Source of the DNA: Ruminococcus sp.
Lineage (GTDB): Bacteria; Bacillota; Clostridia; Oscillospirales; Ruminococcaceae
Length of the DNA stretch: 39,608 nt
Direction of reading: 5' to 3'
Assembly: GCA_015066665.1 (NCBI GenBank)
Contig: SVNX01000021.1
Location: 1 to 39,608 of the forward strand
Under the pieces are notes generated by a model that saw only the letters and a list, made by a program, of their open reading frames with translations, ran no database searches and was not told the origin of the DNA. The position numbers and the translations under genes are program-made. Below, one piece after another: positions 8,161-12,952 of this stretch (position 1 is its first letter; each line of letters starts with the position of its first letter).

Positions 8161-9522
8161 ATGGAATCCATTTCATTGAAGGAACTTGCATCGGCGCTTG
8201 GCACAACGTCCCCGCTCGATGCCGATATCACCTGCATCAGCACGGATACCCGCAATCTGCCGGAAGGCTGTCTGTTCCTTGCCCTTCGAGGTGCAAGATT
8301 CGATGGACATGATTTTGTGCAGCAGGCGATTGAAGCCGGTGCCGCTGCGGCCGTGACAGATACACAGATCAGTGATCTGCCGTGCATTGTTGTACAGAAT
8401 ACCGGTCAGGCACTGCTTGATATTGCGGGATTCTACCGTGACCGCTTCACCCTTCCGCTGGTCGGCGTGACGGGAAGCGTCGGAAAGACCACCACAAAGG
8501 AAATGATTGCCTGCGTGCTGGCTGAGAAATACAATACGCTGAAAACAGCAGAGAATTTCAATAATGAAATCGGCATGCCGAAAACCCTCTTCGGTCTGAC
8601 AAAGGAACATGGTGCAGCGGTTATTGAAATGGGCATGAACCACTTCGGGGAGATCTCCCGCATGTCACGCAGTGCCAAGCCCACCATGGCGGTCATCACC
8701 AATATCGGCTACTCCCACATTGAACATCTCGGTTCGCAGGAGGGCATCCTGAAAGCCAAGCTTGAAATGCTCGACGGTATGAAGCCCGATGCACCCCTGT
8801 TCGTATCTGCGGATGATCCCATGCTTTGTGATCTGCGAAAGAAGCTTGATCGACTTGTGCTGACCTATTCCGTTCAGGGGGCAGAAGGTGCGCCCGTTGG
8901 TACGGATGTGTACGCAGATGACATCGTGGAAATGAACGGTTCCACAGCCTTTACCATTCATGTTGCACAGGGTGCCATCCCTGCTGTGATTCCGACAGTC
9001 GGTATCCACAACGTCAAGAACGCACTGGCAGCATTCCTTGTTGGTTATACTGCCGGTATGACGCCGCAAGAGATCGTCTGCGGACTGGCAAAGTACCAGC
9101 CGACCGGCAACCGTCAGAATATCATGGAAAAGAACGGACAGACTGTCATTGCGGACTGCTACAATGCCAGCCCCGATTCCATGCGTGCAGCACTCGGCGT
9201 CCTGAAAAACTACCCCTGCACCGGCCGCAGAGCCGCAGTGCTGGGTGATATGCTCGAACTCGGTGCGCATTCTGAGATGCTCCATGCCAGAGTCGGTGAA
9301 ATGGCGAAGGATGCAGCTCTTGATCTGCTCTTCTGTTATGGCCCCGCTGCCAAGGGCATTGCGGCACACGCCGGCACGGATGTGCAGATTTTCTGCACAG
9401 AATCCGCAGAGGAGTTGGCTGCACTTCTGAAAGACACACTGAAAGAGGGCGACTGCGTGCTCTTCAAGGCAAGCCACGGCATGCATCTTGAGAAGACCAT
9501 TGCCGAAGTTTACGGCGCATGA
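8161..9522 (+). CDS. murF: UDP-MurNAc-tripeptide:D-Ala-D-Ala ligase MurF
   Basis: A 453-residue Mur ligase completing the UDP-MurNAc-pentapeptide. The P-loop VTGSVGKTTTKE is at residues 103-114; EMGMNHFGEI and the later NCYNASPDSM-type motif (here DCYNASPDSM) are typical of MurF. The ribosome site GAGGAGG lies inside the end of murE, two bases of gap separate the genes, and the stop overlaps the next gene by four bases, so translation is likely coupled along murE-murF-9519. Confidence 0.95.
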   Translation: MESISLKELASALGTTSPLDADITCISTDTRNLPEGCLFLALRGARFDGHDFVQQAIEAGAAAAVTDTQISDLPCIVVQNTGQALLDIAGFYRDRFTLPLVGVTGSVGKTTTKEMIACVLAEKYNTLKTAENFNNEIGMPKTLFGLTKEHGAAVIEMGMNHFGEISRMSRSAKPTMAVITNIGYSHIEHLGSQEGILKAKLEMLDGMKPDAPLFVSADDPMLCDLRKKLDRLVLTYSVQGAEGAPVGTDVYADDIVEMNGSTAFTIHVAQGAIPAVIPTVGIHNVKNALAAFLVGYTAGMTPQEIVCGLAKYQPTGNRQNIMEKNGQTVIADCYNASPDSMRAALGVLKNYPCTGRRAAVLGDMLELGAHSEMLHARVGEMAKDAALDLLFCYGPAAKGIAAHAGTDVQIFCTESAEELAALLKDTLKEGDCVLFKASHGMHLEKTIAEVYGA

Positions 9523-10493
9523 TCCCACTCTGGATGCAGCTGACAGCGGCCGTTTCCTCGGCGCTGACCGGCTTTGTGATGGGCATTGCACTGCTGCCTT
9601 TTCTGCGGAAAATGCAGCTTTGTCTCCCTGAAGAGGACGAAAAGGAGATTTCCGCCGGTGCACAGATGAAGCCTGCCATGTGCGGCTTGCTGGCAGTGAC
9701 CGGCTGTCTTGGGGGACTGGCTCTGCATGCCGCACTCTATCTGACGTTATGCCGTCCCGACCGGACGTCTGCATCGTTTCACGGAGAGACCATGCAGCTG
9801 CTGCTGATGCTTTTGTGGGCAGTCGGCAGTGCAGGTGCGGGACTCTGGACGGATTTCCGGATTGTACGGAGAAAACGGCTCTACCATGTGGCATTCTGGC
9901 TGCGAGCCGCATTTGTGTTCACATCGCTTCTGTTTGTGCTGATGCTCGGCACAGTGATGGAGACGAGCACGGAGCCGACAGTTATGGACTTTGGCTTCCG
10001 GCGATGGGATGCGGGAATTCTCTATTACCCGATTACCGCAGCCATCGGTACGATCTGCTGGCTGTGTGCTGCGGATATGGAAGAAACACAGGGTGCCAGT
10101 CTGACCACAGGCGGCATTCTTCTGCTCGGTCTGACCATACTGCTTTTATCGGGCGGTTATGCATTGCCTGCCATCCTCGCACTGACAGCAGCGGGCGGCT
10201 GTATGGGCAACCTTTTCTGGAATCTGCATCCGTTCGGCGGTCACATCGGCCGTACCGGCAGCTGGTGGCTGGCAGGTCTCCTGACGGGGCTTTGCATGAT
10301 CACGCATCAGCACAGTACATTGGTGCTGATTTCACTTGTTTACCTGATCAATCGGCTGCCCGTGCTTGCCGGCAGGGGCGGCAGCCTTCAGAAACGACTT
10401 CAGGCCGAGGGCAGAACGCCCTGGCAGATCATAGCCGTTCTCAGCGTGTTTGCTGTGTTTTCGGCGGCCGCTGCCGTATATGTGCAGCGATAG
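9519..10493 (+). CDS. Degenerate MraY homologue lacking catalytic residues
   Basis: A 324-residue polytopic protein at the usual place of mraY. Length and landmarks match MraY along its whole length: PFLRKMQLC near the start (PFLRRLKFG in Bacillus), GLWTDFRIVRRKR where MraY has GFLDDYIKVVMKR, GNLFWNLHPFGGHIGRTGS where MraY has FNAHPAKVFMGDTGS, and EGRTPWQII near the end where MraY has VGWSEWRVV. The catalytic Asp-Asp pair is T111-D112, the third Asp is R245, the DGLDG segment is lost and the HHH motif is absent. It probably cannot transfer phospho-MurNAc-pentapeptide to the lipid carrier. A regulatory or scaffold role is possible but unproven. It overlaps murF by four bases. Confidence 0.75.
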   Translation: MIPLWMQLTAAVSSALTGFVMGIALLPFLRKMQLCLPEEDEKEISAGAQMKPAMCGLLAVTGCLGGLALHAALYLTLCRPDRTSASFHGETMQLLLMLLWAVGSAGAGLWTDFRIVRRKRLYHVAFWLRAAFVFTSLLFVLMLGTVMETSTEPTVMDFGFRRWDAGILYYPITAAIGTICWLCAADMEETQGASLTTGGILLLGLTILLLSGGYALPAILALTAAGGCMGNLFWNLHPFGGHIGRTGSWWLAGLLTGLCMITHQHSTLVLISLVYLINRLPVLAGRGGSLQKRLQAEGRTPWQIIAVLSVFAVFSAAAAVYVQR

Positions 10494-10536: not shown

Positions 10537-11790
10537 ATGGAGCAAAATGAAATCAGAGCGGCAAAGGGCGGCAAGGCAAAACGTACACGTCCCGAAAGAC
10601 GCCGTGTGCGGCTGGGACCGGCCGATCTGACACTGGTGATCGTCATCCTGATTCTGCTGGGCATCGGCGTCATCATGATGTTCTCGGCCAGCTATGCCAT
10701 TGCCATCAATGAGGGCAATCCGGGCCACTTCTACGGACTGCGTCAGGGCGTATTCGCCATGGTAGGTCTGGTCGTGATGTTCATCGTCTCGTTCATTGAT
10801 TATCATATTTTCCAGAAGGCGTGGATTGCGCTCGGCTCATATGCCGGCAGTGTGATCCTGCTCATACTGGTTCTTCTGATCGGTACGGATCTTGGCACCG
10901 GCTGTCAGCGCTGGATCGATCTCGGCCCGATGACCTTCCAGCCGTCGGAGATCGCCAAATTCGCTGTGGTCATTCTCTTCGCCTATACGATCGATCAGAA
11001 TGCCTCGCGCATGAAGACCATCAAGACCGGCATCCTTCCGTATCTTGTGCTTCTCGGCATCATCGCTGCACTCCTGATGAAGCAGCCCCATCTGTCCTGT
11101 ACGCTGCTGATCTGTATGATCGGCGTGTCGATGATCTATGTGGGCGGTGCGCGTTACAGCCATCTGTTCCTGCTTGTCATTGTTGGTGTGCTTGCACTGG
11201 CAGCAGTTGTAGCATATAAGATGGTGGTCGAGGATGTGGATTACTTCGGTACACGCCTTAATACATGGCTCGATCCCTTCGGCAGCGAGGATGAGGCCGG
11301 TACCTGGCAGACAAGACAGTCCCTGATTGCAATCGGTTCAGGCGGCCTGTTCGGTATGGGTCTGGGTGAATCCCGCCAGAAATATCTCTATCTTCCCGAG
11401 TCGGAAAATGACTTTGTATTCGCAATTGTCTGTGAAGAGCTGGGTTTTGTCGGTGCTGTGACAGTTATCCTGCTCTTTGTGATGCTGGTAGTGCTGGGCT
11501 TCCATATTGCTGCAAAGGCAAAAGATCGCTTCGGCATGCTTGTGGCCGTGGGCTTTACGGTGCAGATCGGCATTCAGGCATTTCTGAATATTGCGGTGGT
11601 TTCGGGACTTGTACCGAACACCGGTATCAGCCTGCCGTTCTTCAGCTACGGCGGTACAGCGCTGATGATGCAGCTGGCACAGATGGGCATTCTTCTGAAT
11701 ATCTCCCGTGCCCGCTATGTAGTTGAAAGTAAGAAAAAGAAAGAGGAACCCGCACCCGATCCCGAGCCGGAATTCCTCCTGGATGCCTGA
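10537..11790 (+). CDS. ftsW: Septal peptidoglycan polymerase FtsW (SEDS)
   Basis: A 417-residue SEDS glycosyltransferase with about ten membrane segments that polymerises lipid II at the septum with its partner PBP. Motifs include GCQRWIDLGPMTFQPSEIAKF near the first large loop and LPESENDFVFAIVCEELGF, which holds the conserved Asp. A basic cytoplasmic N-terminus precedes the first membrane segment. The start at 10537 follows AAAGGGG; in-frame starts further upstream (10501, 10450) overlap the preceding gene and lack ribosome sites. The PBP at 4359 is the expected partner. Confidence 0.93.
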   Translation: MEQNEIRAAKGGKAKRTRPERRRVRLGPADLTLVIVILILLGIGVIMMFSASYAIAINEGNPGHFYGLRQGVFAMVGLVVMFIVSFIDYHIFQKAWIALGSYAGSVILLILVLLIGTDLGTGCQRWIDLGPMTFQPSEIAKFAVVILFAYTIDQNASRMKTIKTGILPYLVLLGIIAALLMKQPHLSCTLLICMIGVSMIYVGGARYSHLFLLVIVGVLALAAVVAYKMVVEDVDYFGTRLNTWLDPFGSEDEAGTWQTRQSLIAIGSGGLFGMGLGESRQKYLYLPESENDFVFAIVCEELGFVGAVTVILLFVMLVVLGFHIAAKAKDRFGMLVAVGFTVQIGIQAFLNIAVVSGLVPNTGISLPFFSYGGTALMMQLAQMGILLNISRARYVVESKKKKEEPAPDPEPEFLLDA

Positions 11791-11830: not shown

Positions 11831-12952
11831 ATGAAGGTACTTCTCGCAGGCGGCGGTACGGGCGGACATATCAATCCCGCACTGGCCATTGCAGGCATTA
11901 TCAAATCCCATTGTCCGGATGCAGAGTTTCTCTTTGCCGGCACGCCCAATGGCATGGAGGCAAGACTCGTGCCGCAGGCAGGCTATAAGCTCGAACATAT
12001 TAAGGTAGCGGGCTTCCAGCGCCGCCTGACTCCCGGCAACATCGGACGTAATATCAAGGCAGCGTGGTATCTTGCGGGTTCCGGCCGTCGTGCCAAGCAG
12101 ATCATCCGTGAGTTCCAGCCCGATATTGCCATCGGAACGGGCGGCTATGTGGCCGGCCCCATCATCCGTATGGCAGCCAAGATGGGCATTCCCACCGCAA
12201 TCCACGAACAGAACGCCTTTCCGGGCGTGACCAATAAGCTTCTGGCAAAGCAGGTCGACCATGTCATGCTGACCGTGGAAGCTGCCCTGAAGTACTTTGA
12301 TCCGAATATCAAGTACACCGTGACCGGCCTTCCCGTCCGTGCAGCACTCCTGCAGAAAACCAAGGCGCAGGCCAGAGCGGAGCTTGGCTTTGACGACAGC
12401 TTCTGCCTGCTGTCCTTCGGCGGCAGCCTCGGTGCGGGATGCATCAACGAGACCATGGCCGAGGTGCTCAAATGGCATACCGGAAAGAATCTGCAGATCA
12501 ATCACATCCATGGCTACGGCGGCATGGGCAAGGACACTTTCCCGCAGAAAATGAAGGAATACAGCGTGCCCATGAAGAGCAGCCGCATCCGTGTGAGCGA
12601 ATATATCAACGATATGGATACATGTATGGCGGCAGCGGATCTCGTGGTCTGCCGTTCGGGGGCTTCGGTTCTGGCAGAGCTGGAAGCACTCGGAAAGCCC
12701 TCCATCCTGATTCCGTCTCCGATCGTGACCGGCAACCATCAGTTCCACAATGCGAATGTCCTCGGCAAGGCCGGTGCAGCCATTGTTATGGAACAGAAGG
12801 ATGTGACTGCGCAGGGCGTGATCGATCAGATCGAAGCCCTCTACAATGATCGTCCCCGCCTGCAGAGTATGGCACAGAATGCCGCAGCACTTTCCGTCAA
12901 GGATACGGATGATCGTATCTGGCAGGTGGTCGCTTCCCTTCTGAAGAAATAA
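11831..12952 (+). CDS. murG: Lipid II synthase MurG
   Basis: A 373-residue GT-B glycosyltransferase that adds GlcNAc to lipid I on the inner face of the membrane. The N-terminal GGGTGGHINPALA and the motifs HEQNAFPGVTNK and CRSGASVLAELEALGKP (UDP-GlcNAc site) are intact. Length is normal. The ATG at 11831 has AGGTGAT upstream. It depends on lipid I, so a working MraY must be encoded somewhere in the genome. Confidence 0.96.
   Translation: MKVLLAGGGTGGHINPALAIAGIIKSHCPDAEFLFAGTPNGMEARLVPQAGYKLEHIKVAGFQRRLTPGNIGRNIKAAWYLAGSGRRAKQIIREFQPDIAIGTGGYVAGPIIRMAAKMGIPTAIHEQNAFPGVTNKLLAKQVDHVMLTVEAALKYFDPNIKYTVTGLPVRAALLQKTKAQARAELGFDDSFCLLSFGGSLGAGCINETMAEVLKWHTGKNLQINHIHGYGGMGKDTFPQKMKEYSVPMKSSRIRVSEYINDMDTCMAAADLVVCRSGASVLAELEALGKPSILIPSPIVTGNHQFHNANVLGKAGAAIVMEQKDVTAQGVIDQIEALYNDRPRLQSMAQNAAALSVKDTDDRIWQVVASLLKK

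Follow-up and report, generated by a model that had tools for sequence, protein, structure and literature searches.

MraY is considered essential and is viewed as a target for antibiotics; its position in the dcw cluster makes the gene easy to recognise. Two mraY genes in one bacterium are described for Planctopirus limnophila, where mraY1 and mraY2 can each be deleted alone (PMC10632474). This organism is a planctomycete, the accessible text of that report does not mention a dead copy, and the likeness drawn here is one of description. The dcw-encoded SEDS/PBP proteins of Clostridioides difficile provide an example of dcw genes that stay put while the job changes (PMC10693644). They are described there as synthases with roles in sporulation, whereas the dcw MraY reported here appears to have lost catalysis. 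For the alternative MurG, a second enzyme replaces an essential lipid-II step, and the available part of the report names no pseudoenzyme at the original locus (PMC8092295). Our search covered the open-licence literature, with subscription papers outside its scope, and gave no description of the inactive dcw MraY or of the second, divergent MraY of the genomes studied here. As far as searched, a repeatedly evolved pseudoenzyme in the mraY slot is new, while pseudoenzymes as a kind are already known.

The locus is located in a stretch of 39,608 nucleotides from Ruminococcus sp., which was analysed as a whole and is called the window here. A family scan gives the dcw gene order rsmH, ftsL, PBP/SpoVD-type, murE, murF, pMraY, ftsW, murG and murA, where pMraY is the protein in the mraY slot and ftsL is assigned from a weak match. 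The downstream SEDS gene matches TIGR02615 and TIGR02614, both under their own cut-offs. The preliminary description of an intact gene that overlaps murF and precedes ftsW is borne out by the coordinates in Table 1, and the ATGA overlap between murF and pMraY suggests translational coupling.

Table 1. Features of the dcw mraY slot and its neighbours in the window
Feature	Position	Strand	Basis
pMraY (P0001), MraY-derived pseudoenzyme as read from sequence, 324 aa, dcw mraY slot	9519..10493	+	ORF, family profiles, alignment
ATGA 4-nt overlap, pMraY ATG start and murF stop	9519..9522	+	sequence
murF, upstream partner gene	8161..9522	+	TIGR01143, 420 bits
ftsW/spoVE-type SEDS gene, downstream	10537..11790 (ATG 10537)	+	PF01098 over cut-off
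murG	11831..12952	+	TIGR01133, 258 bits
Thr111-Asp112 codons in place of the Asp-Asp pair (D117-D118, A. aeolicus MraY)	9849..9854	+	alignment; roles from PMC6606608
E188-G192 codons in place of DGxDG, last Gly alone retained	10080..10094	+	alignment
Arg245 codon in place of the Mg2+-coordinating Asp (D265, A. aeolicus MraY)	10251..10253	+	alignment; PMC6606608
D81-x-T83 codons of P0001	9759..9767	+	genus conservation

The window protein shares gene position, length and transmembrane architecture with canonical MraY (TIGR00445; PDB 4J72, 5JNQ), and the genus consensus of the dcw protein contains the P-T-M-x-G and GxxxWNLHPAK..LGxTG skeleton. Its best family is TIGR00445 (mraY) with 28.9 bits (E 7.6e-7), far under the cut-off of 192, and PF00953 scores 9.2 bits (E 1.5), below the cut-off of 27. 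All 29 genus copies of the dcw protein match TIGR00445 at E<=0.001, and their profile finds the solved MraY 5jnq with E 2.9e-17 over columns 8-281. Judged from these profiles, homology to MraY is weak for the single window sequence and clear for the genus. The homology and normal length noted initially are retained; the claim of an alignment from end to end is slightly generous, with the TIGR00445 match of pMraY spanning residues 91-284. The predicted fold points, tentatively, to MraY as well. For the AlphaFold2 model of pMraY (pLDDT 67.6, pTM 0.67), Foldseek at E<=0.001 returns 26 matches, 19 to MraY (TMq 0.59-0.66) and 7 to DPAGT1, with a probability of 1.00 and a TM of ~0.6 against MraY structures. 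Since the rows of the alignment behind this model are distant and belong to a partly misaligned MraY2 set, we use it as supporting evidence only.

The key difference to canonical MraY lies in the active site. In A. aeolicus MraY, residues D117, D118 and D265 constitute the DDD motif that is critical for activity, with D265 coordinating Mg2+ (PMC6606608). The alignment of pMraY places T111, D112 and R245 at these positions, replaces DGxDG by E188..Q191-G192 and lacks HHH, and these are the losses that the preliminary description had named. Gln191 is private to the window copy; Asp occupies this position in 29 of 30 genus rows. The degenerate state as such is found across many independent genomes, which excludes a frameshift or an assembly artefact. 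We aligned degenerate dcw copies in 51 rows, which represent 49 distinct genomes (G028 and G139 occur twice; L133 is truncated). Asp is absent from the D265 position in 49 of 49 distinct copies, the residues found across the rows being Q, R, S, E, H, A, K, N, T and C, and HHH is kept by none of the 49. The first Asp of the DD pair is retained in 6 of 49 and the second in 46 of 49; in the genus, D112 is kept in 30 of 30 rows. The motif losses differ between lineages, each showing its own mix. The canonical comparison set holds 2 loci without an ORF among its 30 and at least one mis-picked row, visible from odd letters in the alignment. The conserved remainder of the dcw protein is the MraY frame, with P52, G56, G62, G108, D112, G192, W234, P238, G244 and G247 among others, and the glycines of the G-x-T/S-G segment and the end glycines of DGxDG are present in all 51 degenerate rows. 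On its sequence, the dcw gene of the window is a pseudoenzyme, that is, an enzyme-family homologue without the catalytic residues.

Loss of the active site is accompanied by continued selection on the protein. Of 435 genus pairs, 16 have dS<1; in every one of these, pairwise NG86 estimates on alignments trimmed to the protein yield a dN/dS of 0.06-0.24. For 8 of these pairs, taken from the low-dS end, the Fisher test gives p<=1e-14. The tested pairs show a dN/dS of 0.06-0.16 compared with 0.045-0.086 in 7 pairs for murF and 0.056-0.123 in 6 pairs for ftsW, which amounts to about 1 to 2 times the values of these neighbours. In another lineage, represented by G118/G194, the dcw copy has a dN/dS of 0.23 (p 3e-19), ftsW of 0.13 and murG of 0.07. 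On these estimates the dcw copy is under purifying selection, and it is less tightly constrained than its neighbours. A simple pseudogene is rejected on the low dN/dS of the genus pairs. That the gene is maintained had been proposed before, with simple decay as the alternative; the low dN/dS and the retention in 34 of 38 genus genomes agree with maintenance and disfavour decay, though two genera have deleted the gene.

A slow form of decay needs separate consideration, in which the dcw copy is a functionless relic that is retained since the coupling of murF and ftsW punishes disruption. We regard this as quite improbable. The relic would conform with the fast divergence of the dcw copy, the complete deletion in two genera, the different mix of motifs lost in each lineage and a dN/dS somewhat above that of the neighbours, but it is at odds with the low dN/dS over the full protein in 16 of 16 pairs, with the invariant D112, with the retention of the copy in six clades and with the finding that the sole stop codon among 38 genus match rows (L108) is the terminal TGA. 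Fast divergence would also suit an arms race in which the dcw copy serves as a decoy that draws MraY-directed antibiotics or phage lysis proteins to itself. Phage protein E and nucleoside antibiotics do inhibit MraY (PMC4929429), but given the low dN/dS and the loss of several residues of the nucleotide pocket, a decoy appears extremely improbable.

The genome of the window (77% complete, 40 contigs) contains one other PF00953 protein, P0002 at G000:C14:32419-33387. The presence of an intact MraY elsewhere in the genome had been anticipated, and by its core Asp/Asn motifs P0002 answers this expectation. We use the name MraY2 for this divergent MraY of Ruminococcus and Lachnospiraceae. In P0002, the DD pair, NxxN, DGVDG and MGDAGS are intact, HDH replaces HHH and Glu replaces the Lys of DDxxK. 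DD, NxxN, DGxDG and MGDxGS are present in 50 of 50 MraY2 rows (48 distinct genomes); the HHH position reads HDH in 49 rows and HDQ in one, and the Glu for Lys exchange is shared by P0002 and 27 of the 50 rows. The best family of P0002 is TIGR00445 with 80.5 bits, under the cut-off of 192, compared with 47.1 bits for WecA. Searched against PDB sequences at E<=0.001, the MraY2 profile gives 5 matches, all of them MraY, and the confident structure prediction (pLDDT 87) for a relative, which shares 65% identity in its best segment, resembles MraY structures with TM up to 0.82. From the family scores and the PDB matches we reject a WecA/TagO-type enzyme. We conclude that MraY2 is probably the working enzyme that makes lipid I in these cells. 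Its activity is a prediction, given the deviations from HHH and DDxxK and the score under the TIGR00445 cut-off.

MraY2 and the dcw copy both belong to the PNPT superfamily, and the best matches of MraY2 are MraY in NCBIfam, in PDB sequences and in predicted fold. In contrast to the dcw copy, MraY2 is conserved, keeps the catalytic Asp/Asn motifs and, in the loci read, is encoded away from the dcw cluster. The dcw copy is a good match to canonical MraY and a weak match to the MraY2 profile (hhalign of the two profiles, probability 17.5). When the neighbours of 31 MraY2 loci were compared by shared ORFs, no cell-wall gene was common across genera. In the window's genome, MraY2 is flanked (L001 31-1230 and 2299-3480) by what we take to be a protein with dockerin-like C-terminal repeats and a site-specific recombinase. 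An ORF of ~650-680 aa where complete occurs near MraY2 in 11 of the 31 loci (L090-L093, L096-L099, L101, L102 and L214); it looks glycoside-hydrolase-like by eye, and no cell-wall link was seen for it.

Within the genus, 37 of 38 genomes yield relatives of P0002 and 34 of 38 yield relatives of P0001, part of the latter being fragments; both occur in 12 of 12 genomes of good quality. In R. albus KH2T6 and in AR67, MraY2 is accompanied by a second copy of low score, which in KH2T6 is located at the dcw locus (L076). We extended the comparison to a family sample of 197 genomes, calling MraY2 at E<=1e-40 and canonical MraY above the cut-off. Canonical MraY is present in 161 genomes, MraY2 in 28 and a degenerate dcw copy in 22. 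Among the 28 MraY2 genomes, 19 have a degenerate dcw copy, 4 have a deletion and 5 (G018, G134, G042, G147 and G069) have an intact canonical copy, so that canonical MraY above the cut-off is missing in 23 of 28. The four deletions (G063, G156, G074 and G164; L134-L137; genera g63 and g74; 99% complete) show murF abutting ftsW with mraY gone. Their sole PF00953 protein at E<=0.01 is MraY2, as is also the case for G232 (Lachnospira pectinoschiza) and for G236 and G237 (two Butyrivibrio strains). MraY2 is furthermore the only TIGR00445 match in one Lachnospira and four Butyrivibrio genomes (L201, L208, L209, L213 and L241). With MraY2 under the family cut-off, annotation by cut-off alone would label these Lachnospira and Butyrivibrio genomes mraY-less. 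Canonical MraY above the cut-off is present in addition to MraY2 in 2 of 18 genomes picked from 80 retained loci (G241 and G243). Ten of the 197 family genomes lack canonical MraY above the cut-off, MraY2 and an examined degenerate copy alike. Nine of the ten have a completeness of 64-87%, and two of these nine contain canonical fragments; the tenth, G098, is 95% complete.

Three genomes with a degenerate copy, G065 (99% complete), G103 (88%) and G168 (85%), have no second PF00953 match at E<=10. Our guess is that MraY2 is missing from them by an assembly gap. G065 belongs to the R. albus genus group and is a real exception to the pattern of degenerate copy plus MraY2: either MraY2 falls into an assembly gap, or the milder dcw copy of this genome works. 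This copy (L080, G065:C3:31700-41200) has H-E-H, and Glu replaces two of its three catalytic Asps. The mildest degenerate dcw MraY, L071 (G162:C7:55600-65200), scores 126 bits to TIGR00445 and shows the exchange of two catalytic Asps out of three for Glu as well; its genome contains a full MraY2, and L071 perhaps represents an early stage of inactivation. Such copies with Glu for Asp and H-x-H, together with the lack of another PF00953 match in G065, would be expected if the dcw copy were still an enzyme, either through an altered active site with rescue residues or with another substrate. As a general account this is very improbable, as the Mg site of the window protein is an Arg at the position of the coordinating D265 within the critical DDD motif (PMC6606608), and as the replacing residue varies freely between copies, unlike in a remodelled site.

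Beyond the preliminary description, inactivation is widespread and appears to have arisen repeatedly. The dcw tree was built from MurE, MurF, FtsW and MurG of 46 clusters, 22 degenerate, 20 canonical and 4 deleted. The degenerate state falls into six clades with canonical clades interleaved, and on account of the starred branches the canonical label has to change at least 5 times. Forcing the 26 degenerate or deleted rows into one clade is rejected with p-AU 5e-103, a value obtained from four linked genes. In the MurF tree (57 rows, with 22 of the 29 genus rows omitted) the degenerate label must change 3 times, which is fewer changes than in the four-gene tree. A single ancestral inactivation is rejected. 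The tree of MraY itself counts against a repeated origin, as it groups all degenerate copies in one clade (SH-aLRT 99). This tree has very long branches and long-branch warnings, and 31 of its 33 canonical rows were selected by motif (DGxDG and GD[TS]GS required); we attribute the single clade to the long branches. In MraY trees with one degenerate lineage each, the points of attachment differ: the nearest canonical rows are L030/L031/L034 for three lineages and L011 for three, and for three lineages these neighbours agree with the dcw tree. The best reading of these trees is that the dcw mraY was inactivated repeatedly, in six clades. Degenerate mraY may also have been transferred between dcw clusters.

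The dcw copy is held by selection though its catalytic residues are lost, so that it probably does something other than catalysis. The explanation we favour, with reasonable though limited confidence, is that catalysis passed to MraY2 several times and that the dcw protein was retained for a non-catalytic, probably structural role. The presence of MraY2 would make catalysis by the dcw copy dispensable, this catalysis would then be lost independently in several lineages, and the protein would be retained since MraY also has a non-catalytic job. The likeliest job would be structural, as a hub in the membrane for the MurF-MurG-FtsW machinery that the dcw cluster encodes, and/or as a holding site for undecaprenyl-phosphate or lipid I that feeds MurG. 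A regulator, lipid-binding or scaffold role, as proposed initially, stays conjectural. This proposal draws on three observations. Partial distance correlation over 22 genus genomes links the dcw protein to murF (r 0.45, p 0.002) and ftsW (r 0.35, p 0.0045), a signal that may come from chromosomal linkage. MraY has been found in Mur/MreB/MurG complexes (PMC4929429), and C55-P is bound at the interface of the MraY dimer, a site separate from the catalytic Asps (PMC9046198). In our reading of the alignment, the interfacial C55-P arginine (R340 in A. aeolicus) is missing at the equivalent place in the dcw protein; it is missing as well in the two canonical clostridial sequences looked at. Two further findings count against the favoured explanation. 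Full-length genus matches share 32-45% identity for the dcw copy vs 63-70% for MraY2, and the deletions in g63 and g74 make the dcw gene dispensable in the long term.

The dcw copy could instead be the non-catalytic subunit in a heterodimer with MraY2, which it would regulate or localise in the manner of some pseudoenzymes. MraY dimerises (PMC9046198), and among the 22 family genomes that carry a degenerate copy, MraY2 is present in 19. Against this, g63, g74, Lachnospira and Butyrivibrio have MraY2 while no dcw copy was detected in them. In addition, the distances of the dcw protein and MraY2 show no partial correlation over the 22 genus genomes (r 0.09, p 0.25), a test of low power because the dcw distances are near saturation, whereas murF and ftsW do correlate with MraY2. 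We consider the subunit unlikely. Returning to retention for a structural role, a broader version would assign MraY an ancient non-catalytic role, by which it organises the synthesis of peptidoglycan precursors or division at the membrane. Once a second MraY had assumed catalysis, at least five lineages would have split the roles and kept a dead MraY for structure. This is conceivable, and we put it forward tentatively, at slightly less than even chances.

For annotation, the dcw position is misleading. The 'mraY' in the dcw cluster of Ruminococcus albus and related bacteria looks dead, and the enzyme likely to be at work is divergent, is encoded elsewhere and scores under the standard family cut-off. 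Non-catalytic roles of MraY are hard to study where the enzyme is indispensable. If the dead copies are structural, they open a direct route to the tasks of MraY other than catalysis, and if the ancient structural role is true, these bacteria are natural separation-of-function mutants. One element of the dcw protein stands out in this respect. D81-x-T83 of P0001 is genus-specific, absent from the one canonical sequence looked at and 97% conserved, and it is located in the loop between the predicted helices 55-78 and 85-109, which makes it a candidate interaction site.
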